From contig JAGAZE010000027.1 of the NCBI GenBank assembly GCA_017940185.1, positions 1 to 64,000 on the forward strand: a DNA stretch of 64,000 nt, in the 5' to 3' direction. A model generated the notes under the pieces. It was not told the DNA's origin and ran no database searches. It saw nothing but the letters and a program-made list of their open reading frames with translations. This document shows, piece by piece, positions 26,913-30,919 of this stretch. This DNA comes from Bacteroidaceae bacterium. GTDB lineage: Bacteria > Bacteroidota > Bacteroidia > Bacteroidales > Bacteroidaceae. The position numbers and the translations under genes were made by a program. The stretch's first letter is position 1, and each line of letters begins with the position of its first letter.

Positions 26913-28331
26913 CTATGCCTCTTTGGGCGGTGTCTCGTTGCGTTTTAGCTCTTCCACGTAGGCATCTATCTTGTGAAGCTCCTGCGGTATGCGTATGTTT
27001 TGCGGACAGTGGGGTTCACATTGTCCGCAACCTATGCAGTGGTTCGCCTGCCGCAGTTTGGGTACGGAGCGATCGAGGCCGATGAGATACTGGCGGCGCA
27101 GATTGGCGTAGCTCTCTTCGTGAAGCTTATTGGGAAGGGTGCCTTCGTTCTTGCACTTGTTGTAGTGGACGAAGATGCCTGGAATGTCGATGCCATAGGG
27201 GCACGGCATGCAGTATTTGCAGTCGTTGCACGGTATGTTTTCCAGGTTGACGATTTTTTCGGCTATATCTTTCTGCAGGAATTCCATTTCCTGCTCTGTC
27301 AGCGGCTTGAGCGGACAGTAGCTTAGCAGGTTGTCTTTCAGGTGTTCCATGTAAGTCATTCCGCTGAGCACGGAGAGCACCAGTGTTGGTGTGCCTGCAT
27401 ATCTGAACGCCCACGATGCGGCACTTCGCTTTGGGTCTTTCTGCTTTAGTTCTTTGACGATGTACTGCGGCAGGCTGGCAAGTCGTCCTCCCAGCAATGG
27501 CTCCATAATCACTGCGGGAATGTTGCGTTTTTCCAGTTCGGCATAGAGGTATCGTGCGTCGACATTGCGCTCGTTGATTTCGTTGGCCCAGTCCCAATCC
27601 AGATAGTTCAGTTCTATTTGGCAGAAGTCCCAATGGTATTCTTCGTGTCGGGCAAGCATCTCGTCGAACACCTCCTGTTGGCCATGGAATGAGAACCCCA
27701 GGTTGCGTATGTGTCCGGCTTTACGTTCGGCTTGCAGAAAGTCCATCATGCCATTGTCGATGTATCGTGCATTAAACTCGTCCATTCCGCGTCCGATAGA
27801 GTGAAGCAGGTAGTAGTCGATGTAGTCTACTTGCAGCTCCTTGAACGAGTTGCGATACATCTTCATGCTCTCTTCGCGGCTCCATGTTTCCTCGCTGAAG
27901 TTACTCAGTTTGGTGGCTACGAAGTATTTGTTGCGCGGGTGGCGGCAGAGTGCTTTGCCTGTGGCTTGTTCCGACATGCCTTTGCAGTAGGCGGGCGACG
28001 TGTCGAAGTAGTTGACTCCATGCTCTATGGCGTAGTCTACGAGCCGATTTATCTGTTCTTGGTCGAGCGGTGCATCACTTTCGCGTTCTGCGCCGCCGTC
28101 GGTGGTGGGCAGACGCATCATGCCGTAGCCCAGCAGCGATACCTTTTCCTTTGTCTTAGGGTTGGTGCGATAGGTCATTTTGCCTTTGGGCGGTTCTACT
28201 TGGTTTTTGTATTCATCGCCGATAGCGTCGCTTTCTTTCTTCTTGCAACCTGCAAGTGTGAGCGCTGTGGCGGCAGTGGCTCCGCCAAAGAGCTTCAGAA
28301 AGTTGCGACGCGATATGTTGTTGTGTGCCAT
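26913..28331 (-). CDS. Tat-exported aldo/keto reductase with C-terminal ferredoxin domain
   Basis: This 472-residue protein begins with a twin-arginine motif (SRRNFLK, Arg8-Arg9), a hydrophobic stretch and a lipobox (LAGC, Cys29), so it is probably exported folded and lipid-anchored. The aldo/keto reductase barrel follows: FDTSPAYCKG with Asp110 and Tyr115, Lys141 in ATKL, and His177 in DYYLLHS. The C-terminus carries Cys clusters CNDCKYCMPCPYG and CIGCGQCEPHCPQNI, which should bind 4Fe-4S clusters. It is the last gene of the tatA-tatC-polyferredoxin block, 25 bases after the polyferredoxin. The substrate is unknown; electrons probably come from or go to the polyferredoxin. Confidence 0.85.
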   Translation of the reverse strand: MAHNNISRRNFLKLFGGATAATALTLAGCKKKESDAIGDEYKNQVEPPKGKMTYRTNPKTKEKVSLLGYGMMRLPTTDGGAERESDAPLDQEQINRLVDYAIEHGVNYFDTSPAYCKGMSEQATGKALCRHPRNKYFVATKLSNFSEETWSREESMKMYRNSFKELQVDYIDYYLLHSIGRGMDEFNARYIDNGMMDFLQAERKAGHIRNLGFSFHGQQEVFDEMLARHEEYHWDFCQIELNYLDWDWANEINERNVDARYLYAELEKRNIPAVIMEPLLGGRLASLPQYIVKELKQKDPKRSAASWAFRYAGTPTLVLSVLSGMTYMEHLKDNLLSYCPLKPLTEQEMEFLQKDIAEKIVNLENIPCNDCKYCMPCPYGIDIPGIFVHYNKCKNEGTLPNKLHEESYANLRRQYLIGLDRSVPKLRQANHCIGCGQCEPHCPQNIRIPQELHKIDAYVEELKRNETPPKEA

Positions 28332-28356
28332 GGTATTGTTGTTTTGCGTGATGGGG

Positions 28357-29874
28357 TTAGTAAGTGTGGTGTTCTTCGTGTCCTTCTACGTAGATGGCGG
28401 TGAATGGCCGTGCCGGACAGAGGTTCTCGCAGGCTCCGCAGCCTATGCAGCGGCTCTCTGTAATCTGCGGCACGAAGGGCGACTCTTCATCGTTTTCGTC
28501 AAGAGGCACCATCTCTATGGCGCCTGTGGGGCAGTGGCGGGCGCAGTTGCCGCACTCCACACCATCGGTCAGGGGCACACAGTTTTTCTCTATCCACACG
28601 GCATGTCCTATTTGTGTGCTCGCTTTTTCCTCGAGGGCGATGGGATGTATGGCATCTGTGGGACATACTTGTGAGCAACGGTTGCACTCGGGACGGCAGT
28701 AGCCGCGCTCATAACTCATTGTGGGCTGCATGGCGGTGAGCAGTCCGCCGGCAGGACGCAGCACGCCGTTGGGGCATTGTGCAATGCATAGCTGGCATCC
28801 AGTGCAGTGGCGCGCCATGTTGCGGGCACTCCAGGCACCTGGAGGAGTGATAGGTGTCTGACGATGTGGCACCACCTTGTCTTCTATCTCCGCCAATCCG
28901 CCGTCCACCTTTTTCTTCTCCTGTGCCATGGCGGCAGTGGTGAGCAGTGCCGTGGCGAGCAGGAATGAGCGGCGGCTGTCGTCGGTGGGTGCGTCTTTTT
29001 GCTGATTGGGGGATGGTTCGGCTGTGACCGTTGCTGCGTGGCGAGCAGATGAAGATTTTTTCAGACCATAGGAGAGTGCTCCAAACTGGCATTTGTCTAC
29101 GCAGTTGCCACACACTACGCAGCGGCTGTGGTCCACCGTATGCCTGGTGTAGTCTATGCACGACGCCTTGCAGTGACGGGTGCACTGCGAGCAGTTCTTG
29201 CACTTCTGCTCGTCGAAGCGTATCTTCATCAGCGAGAAGCGCGAAAGGCATCCCAATACGGTGCCAACCGGGCAGATGGTGTTGCAGTAGGTGCGACCAT
29301 TGCGCCATGCCATCACAAACAATGCAGCCACAAATGCAACGGCAATAAGAAGTACGGGCAGACTCTTCAACCACACGTCGACACTGTAGAAGGCATAGCT
29401 GTCAAAGCTTTCGGCTATGGATGCCAGCACATTGTTGCCCAATTGGTAGATGGGTTGCAGCACGGCGGTGGCAAAGCGTCCGTAGTGTCCGTAGGGATCG
29501 AGTAGCGAGGTGAGTGCTGTCAGGCCCAGCGCTATGGCCACGATGAGCACACCGAGCATGAGATAGCGCAACCAGGAGAGCGCGCGTGAGTAGCTGTAGT
29601 GGTGTTTTTTGCGCCGATGTGAGAGGTGGGCGAACACATCTTGCAGTACGCCTAGCGGACAGATGACCGAGCAATAGATGCGCCCGAATACCAAGGTGAG
29701 CACCACCAAGACGATGATTACCACGGCATTGAGTGCCAGCACGGCAGGCAGCAATTGCACTTTGGCCATCCAGCCAAGCCAATGGTGGGCAGCTCCTGTC
29801 ACGTCGACGAATAGGAGCGTGATCAGAAGGAAGAAAACAGCGCCTAGTAGGCGGCGGATACGTCGTAGAGTCAT
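28357..29874 (-). CDS. Membrane polyferredoxin (NapH-like) with an internal Tat-like signal
   Basis: The start at 29874 (MTLRRIRRLL) gives 505 residues; a GTG frame reaching 30123 reads into tatC and is rejected. Four transmembrane helices (about 11-24, 41-63, 102-124, 172-190) carry the NapH/NosR-type motifs CSVICP (68-73) and CNTICP (197-202). Two ferredoxin motifs follow (Cys225-235 and Cys252-262). Then comes DDSRRSFLLATALLTTAAMA (298-317), a twin-arginine motif before a hydrophobic segment. Four more Cys clusters follow (357-367, 393-404, 432-448, 476-486). The likely role is electron transfer across or along the membrane. The internal motif suggests that the C-terminal cluster domain is exported by the Tat system encoded just upstream. 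Confidence 0.85.
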   Translation of the reverse strand: MTLRRIRRLLGAVFFLLITLLFVDVTGAAHHWLGWMAKVQLLPAVLALNAVVIIVLVVLTLVFGRIYCSVICPLGVLQDVFAHLSHRRKKHHYSYSRALSWLRYLMLGVLIVAIALGLTALTSLLDPYGHYGRFATAVLQPIYQLGNNVLASIAESFDSYAFYSVDVWLKSLPVLLIAVAFVAALFVMAWRNGRTYCNTICPVGTVLGCLSRFSLMKIRFDEQKCKNCSQCTRHCKASCIDYTRHTVDHSRCVVCGNCVDKCQFGALSYGLKKSSSARHAATVTAEPSPNQQKDAPTDDSRRSFLLATALLTTAAMAQEKKKVDGGLAEIEDKVVPHRQTPITPPGAWSARNMARHCTGCQLCIAQCPNGVLRPAGGLLTAMQPTMSYERGYCRPECNRCSQVCPTDAIHPIALEEKASTQIGHAVWIEKNCVPLTDGVECGNCARHCPTGAIEMVPLDENDEESPFVPQITESRCIGCGACENLCPARPFTAIYVEGHEEHHTY

Positions 29875-29933
29875 AGTTGGAAAAGTGTTGTTAGCGTGTG
29901 AGGGTATTGTAGGAGCAGCAGGAAGAGAACTTG

Positions 29934-30671
29934 TTATTTTCTTACCACCCTGATGCTCACTTCGTAGAGCAGATAGATGGGCAGCGCCACCACAAATAGA
30001 GTAAAGGCGTCGCCCGAGGGTGTGATAACTGCAGCCGTTATGAGTATTGCCACTATGGCGTGACGGCGGTAGCGTTGCATCATGCCGCGGCGCAATATGT
30101 GCATGCTGGAGAGCAGTGCGCACACCACGGGCAACTCAAACACGATGCCCATCACGAGCGTGAGCATCAGCAGCGTGTCGATGTAGCTCTGCAGCGTGAG
30201 CATATTTGCCACGTCGGGGCTCACCTGATAGGTGGCGAGAAACTTCAGCGTGAGTGGAAACACGATGAAATATGAGATGAGCACGCCCACCACAAACATT
30301 GCATAGGCGGCTGTTCCCACGCGCAGGGCGATGTGTCGTTCGCGGTCGTAGAGTGCCGGCGCCACAAATCCGAAGAGTTGCCATATCACATAGGGCGAAG
30401 CCACCAGCAATCCGGCGTAGAGCGCCACCTTCATGTGTATGAAAAACTGCTCGGTGAGCTGTGTGTTCATCAGCGGTATACTGAAGGCATCGGTGTTGAG
30501 CAGCCGATAGGTGATGAAGTGGCTGCTGCGGGGTGCCAGCACAATATCGAACAGCGTCTGCTTGAAGGCAAAAGCCACGATGCCTGAGATACCCACCACT
30601 GCCAGACATCGCAGCAGACAGGTGCGCAATGCCTCCAGGTGGTCCCAGAAGGTGGCTTCGTTGGCGTTCAT
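29934..30671 (-). CDS. tatC: Twin-arginine translocase subunit TatC
   Basis: TatC is the receptor of the Tat system, which exports folded proteins with twin-arginine signals. The 245 residues start MNANEATFWDHLEALR, containing the conserved FxxHLxxLR motif. Six membrane segments follow, including SPYVIWQLFGFVAPALYDRER and the conserved FELPV loop (VMGIVFELPVVCALL). It overlaps tatA by four bases (ATGA) and is followed after 59 bases by the polyferredoxin gene. Confidence 0.96.
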   Translation of the reverse strand: MNANEATFWDHLEALRTCLLRCLAVVGISGIVAFAFKQTLFDIVLAPRSSHFITYRLLNTDAFSIPLMNTQLTEQFFIHMKVALYAGLLVASPYVIWQLFGFVAPALYDRERHIALRVGTAAYAMFVVGVLISYFIVFPLTLKFLATYQVSPDVANMLTLQSYIDTLLMLTLVMGIVFELPVVCALLSSMHILRRGMMQRYRRHAIVAILITAAVITPSGDAFTLFVVALPIYLLYEVSIRVVRK

Positions 30672-30919
30672 TGCTTTACGTCGGTGATTGTCGCGTTGTC
30701 ACCAGCGCTCTTTGTATTGTCGCTGGGTGGCTCGTCGGTTTTGTCGTCGGCTATGTTTTCAATGTCGTTCATGCCCTGTTTGAAGCTTTTCACGCCCTTG
30801 CCCAGACCGCGCATCAGCTCGGGAATTTTGCGGCCGCCGAAGAGCAGCAACACAATCAGGGCAATGATGATAATTTCGCCCGTGCCGAGGTTGAGAAACA
30901 AAAGGAGACTTGTGTCCAT
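30668..30919 (-). CDS. tatA: Twin-arginine translocase subunit TatA
   Basis: TatA forms the translocation pore. The 83 residues have a short periplasmic N-terminus, one membrane helix (EIIIIALIVLLLFGG), the hinge with the conserved FGGRKIPEL, and an amphipathic helix (RGLGKGVKSFKQGM) before an acidic tail. No tatB is present in the window, so this is a minimal TatAC system. It is the first gene of the four-gene block and overlaps tatC by four bases. Confidence 0.96.
   Translation of the reverse strand: MDTSLLLFLNLGTGEIIIIALIVLLLFGGRKIPELMRGLGKGVKSFKQGMNDIENIADDKTDEPPSDNTKSAGDNATITDVKQ

Follow-up and report, generated by a model that had tools for sequence, protein, structure and literature searches.

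In Staphylococcus, the tatAC genes stand with fepB, that is, Tat genes lie beside the gene of a substrate. A client-linked Tat operon is also described for Bacillus, in which tatCd occurs with phoD (PMC3827258). The locus analysed here, located in a window of 64,000 nucleotides (the whole stretch of DNA under study) from a Bacteroidaceae bacterium, resembles both systems in that Tat genes adjoin genes of putative substrates, and differs from them in its predicted clients, a membrane iron-sulfur relay (polyferredoxin, PFD) and an iron-sulfur aldo/keto reductase (AKR). A family of dual Sec-Tat polyferredoxins, with the MLMS-1 protein Q1NSB0, has been published (Tooke et al., 2017; PMC5449189), and NapGH, the complex whose subunits PFD recalls, is described in the available text of the same paper as a quinol dehydrogenase complex with a part in nitrate respiration (PMC5449189). 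The main text of that paper, in its available part, names Bacteroidetes once, in relation to YkuE-type proteins (PMC5449189).

Among the top-ranked open-licence literature matches, we recognised no paper on AKR pairing or on Tat in Prevotella, and the available part of PMC10434189 holds nothing on a PFD-AKR pair. The architecture of PFD is already known; its pairing with AKR was not found among these open-licence matches.

The preliminary description had read four genes in one direction, with overlaps or short gaps, and tatA, tatC, PFD and AKR are indeed four real open reading frames, all on the minus strand between positions 26913 and 30919 (Table 1). The tatA and tatC genes overlap by 4 bp, about 59 bp separate tatC from PFD, and 25 bp lie between the PFD stop and the AKR start. 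One correction concerns PFD: its longest open frame starts at a GTG (30123) inside tatC and encodes 588 amino acid residues, and, because homologues align from the ATG at 29874, we placed the start there, so that PFD probably has 505 and not 588 residues and tatC and PFD probably do not overlap. TatA and TatC are both homologues above the curated cut-offs of their families, and TatC is the single match in the source genome assembly (2.09 Mb, 89% complete). The identification of the other two products as a membrane polyferredoxin and an AKR with ferredoxin clusters agrees with the family matches (NapH and NapG models for PFD, AKR and 4Fe-4S dicluster for AKR), and the twin-arginine motifs ascribed to both proteins, as well as the AKR lipobox, are present.

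Table 1. Features of the tatA-tatC-PFD-AKR locus, in window coordinates. A2 residue numbering of PFD columns is one higher than that counted from the ATG.
Feature	Position	Strand	Basis
tatA, 83 aa	30668..30919	-	PF02416 3.2e-14; TIGR01411 65 bits, above cut-off of 53.9
tatC, 245 aa	29934..30671	-	PF00902 1.9e-64
PFD, 505 aa; CxxxCP-bearing NapH-like membrane part, predicted cytoplasmic 2x[4Fe-4S], internal Tat motif, NapG-like 4x[4Fe-4S]	28357..29874	-	TIGR02163/PRK09477 and PRK09476 matches, below cut-offs; Cys columns
PFD dicluster Cys before the Tat motif, predicted cytoplasmic side	29089..29202	-	invariant Cys columns 226-263, A2 numbering
PFD internal twin-arginine motif SRRSFLL, residues 300-306	28957..28977	-	next comes a short segment of weak hydrophobicity, then KKK
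PFD four predicted periplasmic [4Fe-4S] motifs	28417..28806	-	invariant Cys columns 358-487, A2 numbering
AKR, 472 aa; Tat signal, lipobox, C-terminal 2x[4Fe-4S]	26913..28331	-	PF00248 3.5e-37, PF13187, PF10518; model
AKR Tat motif SRRNFLK, residues 7-13	28293..28313	-	first Arg in 100%, second Arg in 98% of 93 homologues
AKR lipobox LAGC, Cys29	28245..28256	-	Cys in 92/93 homologues
AKR eight Cys, two [4Fe-4S] (C368-C377, C432-C442)	27006..27230	-	invariant, 93/93

PFD shares with the MLMS-1 polyferredoxin, as presented in the available text of PMC5449189, a NapH-NapG fusion, an internal twin-arginine motif before a weak TM5, clusters on both sides and positive charges after TM5; the weak segment and the charges after it follow the rule set out in that paper. 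In the long PFD frame, residues 257-358 are covered by NapH models and residues 377-570 by the NapG model, successive parts of one chain, and the scores stay below the NCBIfam equivalog cut-offs (80.5 bits against 234 for NapH, 65.3 against 269 for NapG), which means that PFD is not NapG or NapH proper. Its NapH-type membrane domain and NapG-type cluster domain are those of NapGH, from which it differs in being one polypeptide and in having no nitrate reductase among the four genes. Across 29 sequences, the cysteine residues that never vary are consistent with two clusters ahead of the internal Tat motif and four behind it, and the membrane part has CxxxCP pairs; this is much like the MLMS-1 protein, which is described as having three and four clusters (PMC5449189, available text). 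The Bacteroidales PFDs also differ from the latter in their partners, a Tat AKR or a DUF362 protein, often beside tatAC, and in the frequent replacement of the first arginine by lysine. All 119 homologues align at the twin basic motif, which reads RR in 68, KR in 50 and RK in 1; the source PFD has RR, and 11 changes of motif state are counted on a 66-row tree. A KR pair is tolerated in at least one Tat substrate. On the Kyte-Doolittle scale, and not by the Gapp server of PMC5449189, the mean hydropathy of TM5 (19 aa) is 0.82, taken over the 72 rows (of 119) that match RR, against 2.79 for TM1 in 119 rows, and one to four Lys/Arg residues are found in the eight positions after the TM5 h-region in 67 of the 72 rows scored. 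A predicted structure of PFD was set aside as too poor (mean pLDDT 45). When the PDB was searched with the PFD sequence, the best stretches listed (60 of 62 matches) fell in the cluster parts, and the membrane part preceding residue 214 received none of them.

The AKR resembles, by its barrel and two [4Fe-4S] motifs, the AKRs with a C-terminal ferredoxin that we take to be the COG1453-type family, and is distinguished from them by its Tat signal and lipobox; weaker homologues in the phylum (37-42% identity) align only from residues 51-63, without the signal part. Residues D110, Y115, K141 and H177, the AKR catalytic tetrad, are invariant in 93/93 homologues (of 94, that of L079 was omitted, its open frame having a wrong start). 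Of 94 AKRs, 82 have a lipobox by a strict pattern; with a wider pattern, drawn up later, 92 of 93 do. With an RRxFLK signal and a lipobox cysteine, the AKR carries the sequence marks of a Tat lipoprotein and is probably lipid-anchored. Lipoproteins of Bacteroidetes are known to use an acidic surface-export signal; none is evident after Cys29 in the 93 homologues, in which lysine takes the +2 position in 64 and acidic residues number no more than two among the next five.

The predicted AKR model (mean pLDDT 79) matches AKR structures, several of them solved with NADP(H), which makes it probable that the barrel still binds a nicotinamide cofactor. A PDB sequence search with AKR gave no match into the ferredoxin part, the best stretches ending at or before residue 354. 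AKRs use a hydride from NAD(P)H and iron-sulfur clusters pass single electrons, and, to our knowledge, the two are not normally coupled without a flavin; no flavin domain is among the family matches listed for AKR or PFD, which weighs against cluster-driven AKR chemistry. We know of no free nicotinamide cofactor pool in the periplasm, and for this reason export with a bound cofactor, together with an electron feed from outside the AKR, is an attractive possibility.

Gene order was compared in named genomes, using the best 80 of 194 PFD relatives, which are near relatives. PFD is followed by AKR in 80/80 loci, and tatA-tatC lies directly upstream of the pair in 61, with gaps of 10-287 bp; in the remaining loci it is downstream (1/80) or outside the retrieved DNA (18/80, two of them without room upstream). 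The comparison around tatAC that the preliminary description had called for thus finds the genes kept together in relatives, and the 80-locus result shows conservation of the putative module among Prevotella-like bacteria. The best named locus (L089, uncultured rumen Prevotellaceae bacterium RUG624) has the same order, namely S46 peptidase, tatA, tatC, PFD, AKR, UPRT and PEPCK. The upstream S46 peptidase was considered as a further member and excluded, being matched in 1 of 100 loci searched (L089; many loci are partial).

Farther away, in a sample of 198 genomes of the order, AKR stands beside PFD in 27 of 29 relatives' PFD loci and tatAC is within the 1.5-kb flanks in 1 of 29; on a wider reading, tatAC is downstream of the PFD-AKR pair in L069-L073 and L159. 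When 105 AKR places were compared with part of the listed TatC rows, tatC was found within 6 kb of AKR in at least 60. An AKR match at E<=1e-60 was obtained in five genomes of a 395-genome phylum sample in which at most four candidates were scored per genome; four of these genomes belong to the order, and the fifth match lacks the signal part, its alignment starting at residue 52. One locus (L254, 6593-11012) has the order AKR-PFD-AKR, a single polyferredoxin between two reductases.

In some Bacteroidales loci the AKR is followed by subsets of DUF1893, a TonB receptor, DUF362 and a weakly ECF-like membrane protein (E 0.0046), and in some of these tatA-tatC comes after. The DUF362 protein of this longer form has, by eye, a Sec-type start, and the two TonB receptors scanned score best, though below cut-offs, against receptor models for B12, siderophores and heme. 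AKR is present in 17 of the 19 DUF1893-bearing genomes of the order sample; DUF1893 was searched for and not found in the source genome, and, of the 80 named loci, 7, 6 and 2 have neighbour clusters of DUF1893, ECF-like and TonB type, respectively. The longer form hints at work on an imported compound. A literature search on TM1506/DUF1893 gave nothing useful. The DUF1893 proteins beside AKR (L070, L072, L073, L078 and L159) show, by eye, a CP(V/L)E(K/R)xC motif near their end. In L073 (6279-8558), DUF1893 and the TonB receptor share one open frame, as if fused or translationally coupled, and the DUF1893 places of L190 and L207 lie in long open frames of 825 and 770 aa, which may be the same arrangement.

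More distant PFDs (35-43% identity, L169-L188) have another neighbour. In 18 of 20 loci (L169-L185 and L188) PFD adjoins a protein of about 310 aa matching a DUF362 representative, the other 17 being 51-75% identical to it; all 18 have a twin-arginine motif near the N-terminus, and the three that were scanned all match PF04015. Of the two other loci, one has an AKR and one no recognised partner. In a PFD tree of 66 of the 119 rows (every third named locus, quick method), AKR-partnered and DUF362-partnered PFDs are split by a single branch with support of 100, against about 16 changes with shuffled labels. The long branches of L186 and L187 meet in this tree, L187 being the locus without an identified partner.

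AKRs are also found without PFD, in five loci (L245-L249) of genomes that lack a PFD match at E<=1e-60, four of these genomes being of one genus and their completeness 69-92%. These AKRs keep the tetrad, the Tat motif and both cluster motifs, and have no lipobox (Cys29 in 0/5); in L245 and L246, tatC is a divergent neighbour of AKR. In L250 only a 293-aa PFD-like piece is present, and the AKR again has no lipobox. These sequences suggest that a lipid anchor accompanies the complete PFD relay and, since five AKRs occur without PFD, that the AKR may be usable without the relay, which would not be obligatory.

In a family sample of 201 genomes, TatC is present in 160 and AKR in 140 (threshold E<=1e-50, including the weakly matching G278 at 7e-62): 139 have both, 1 has AKR only, 21 TatC only and 40 neither (Fisher 1.7e-25). 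When PFD replaces AKR, the four counts against TatC are unchanged (139, 1, 21 and 40), and the contrary case is G285 (genus g152, 84% complete), with AKR and PFD and no TatC found. Because kinship inflates such a family-wide test, the comparison was made within genera. AKR is found in 6/6 TatC-positive and 0/7 TatC-negative genomes of the source genus, and pooling the nine genera in which some genomes have TatC and others do not, g152 among them, gives an exact one-sided p of 6.5e-8 (5.9e-5 without the source genus, 4.4e-9 without g152, which holds G285), a genus being assigned for 21 of the 41 TatC-negative genomes. Taken together, 147 of the 148 genomes that carry AKR or PFD have TatC, versus 13 of the 53 with neither. 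Among the 21 TatC-positive genomes without AKR, 8 have PFD, which in G165 is partnered with DUF362, and 13 have neither, so that Tat must serve something else in these 13 of 160 genomes.

In the order sample, TatC (164 genomes at E<=0.001, including two below the family cut-off) is present in 31/31 genomes with a strong AKR match versus 133 of the 167 others. These 31 are the matches at 1e-160 or better among 35 at 1e-60; the four that were dropped (G003, G125, G132 and G193), all TatC-positive, start to match at residues 51-63.

Tat signals were counted with PF10518, a short model that is insensitive for client counts, since it missed the AKR in TatC-positive G201, G228 and G303 of the source genus. 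It gave 0-2 matches in 131 of the 160 TatC-positive genomes, 13 and 14 in two genomes, and two places in the source genome, of which the AKR signal is the better (E 1.7e-6). The other place (L003, contig 11, 250-1707) encodes a protein that is Gfo/Idh/MocA-like by eye, possibly a further Tat client with bound NADP. The preliminary description had proposed a dedicated module of export and electron transfer. The link itself holds, as TatC tracks AKR and PFD across the family and within genera, in line with what a largely dedicated module would predict, but "dedicated" is too strong if meant generally, in view of the 13 TatC-positive genomes without both, the second Tat candidate in the source genome, the 14 PF10518 matches of one relative and the five AKR loci without PFD. 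The co-occurrence suggests that exporting the AKR-PFD pair may be a main job of Tat in Prevotella-like gut bacteria.

The reading that we favour, with modest confidence, is a client-linked Tat operon, in which TatAC would export two redox proteins, PFD and AKR, the former relaying electrons to the latter, and in which the pair would be an apparent main reason for retaining Tat in Prevotella-type Bacteroidaceae. Sec would insert the first four membrane helices of PFD, and Tat would handle the weakly hydrophobic fifth segment and carry the four-cluster domain to the periplasm. Before export, the AKR would fold and take up its two [4Fe-4S] clusters, and probably a bound nicotinamide cofactor, in the cytoplasm; Tat would then export it in the folded state, and it would be lipid-anchored. 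Most likely, the clusters of PFD would take up electrons, either from the menaquinol pool or from the cytoplasm, and hand them on to the AKR ferredoxin domain, and the AKR would most likely reduce a small carbonyl-type compound in the periplasm.

It is rather unlikely that Tat is of general purpose, PFD and AKR being two of several clients and neighbours by chance, since the within-genus link of AKR and the contrast between 147/148 and 13/53 genomes argue against it, as do the low PF10518 counts of most TatC-positive genomes, even though that model misses real signals; the second Tat-signal place of the source genome, the 13 genomes with neither partner and the two genomes with 13 and 14 matches speak for it. 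Periplasmic enzymes with tightly bound NADP(H) are known, such as the glucose-fructose oxidoreductase of Zymomonas, and the AKR could act likewise on its own, PFD serving something else. The conserved tetrad, a barrel model close to NADP-binding AKRs and the AKRs without PFD are consistent with this, but we consider it somewhat improbable, given that PFD and AKR are adjacent in 80/80 named loci, that both cluster motifs are kept in 93/93 AKRs and Cys29 in 92/93, and that Cys29 is absent from the PFD-less AKRs (0/5), which are few and mostly of one genus.

The electrons could also flow in reverse, with the AKR oxidising a periplasmic substrate and PFD delivering the electrons either to the quinone pool or into the cytoplasm. 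In principle AKR reactions are reversible, a NapH-NapG fusion could work in both directions, and the sequence examined has no feature that sets the direction. The named relative, NapGH, is a quinol dehydrogenase complex (PMC5449189, available text), which counts against the reverse direction, and we consider the latter unlikely. Least probable of all, in our estimate, is that the module acts in the periplasm on a scavenged cofactor, of metallo- or nitrogen-ring type, to prepare it for uptake, as the neighbours in the longer form of the locus, the nearest models of the two receptors and the presence of AKR in most DUF1893-bearing genomes might indicate; the source genome, in which DUF1893 was not found, the small number of named loci with these neighbours and the weakness of the ECF match all weigh against it.

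Returning to the client-linked operon, a bolder form of it is possible, and we put it forward tentatively: the electron source of a periplasmic AKR may have been swapped, so that single electrons derived from the membrane would feed or drain its hydride chemistry by way of a dual Sec-Tat relay of six or seven clusters and the ferredoxin domain of the AKR itself, independently of cytoplasmic NADPH, with Tat retained essentially for the pair in Prevotella-type bacteria and DUF362 as an alternative terminal enzyme. The comparison places a known class of dual Sec-Tat polyferredoxins, for which we did not find a function described, beside defined partners (AKR or DUF362). It would provide a testable reason for the retention or loss of Tat in gut and rumen Bacteroidaceae, and may indicate that common gut anaerobes have an uncharacterised redox activity in the periplasm.
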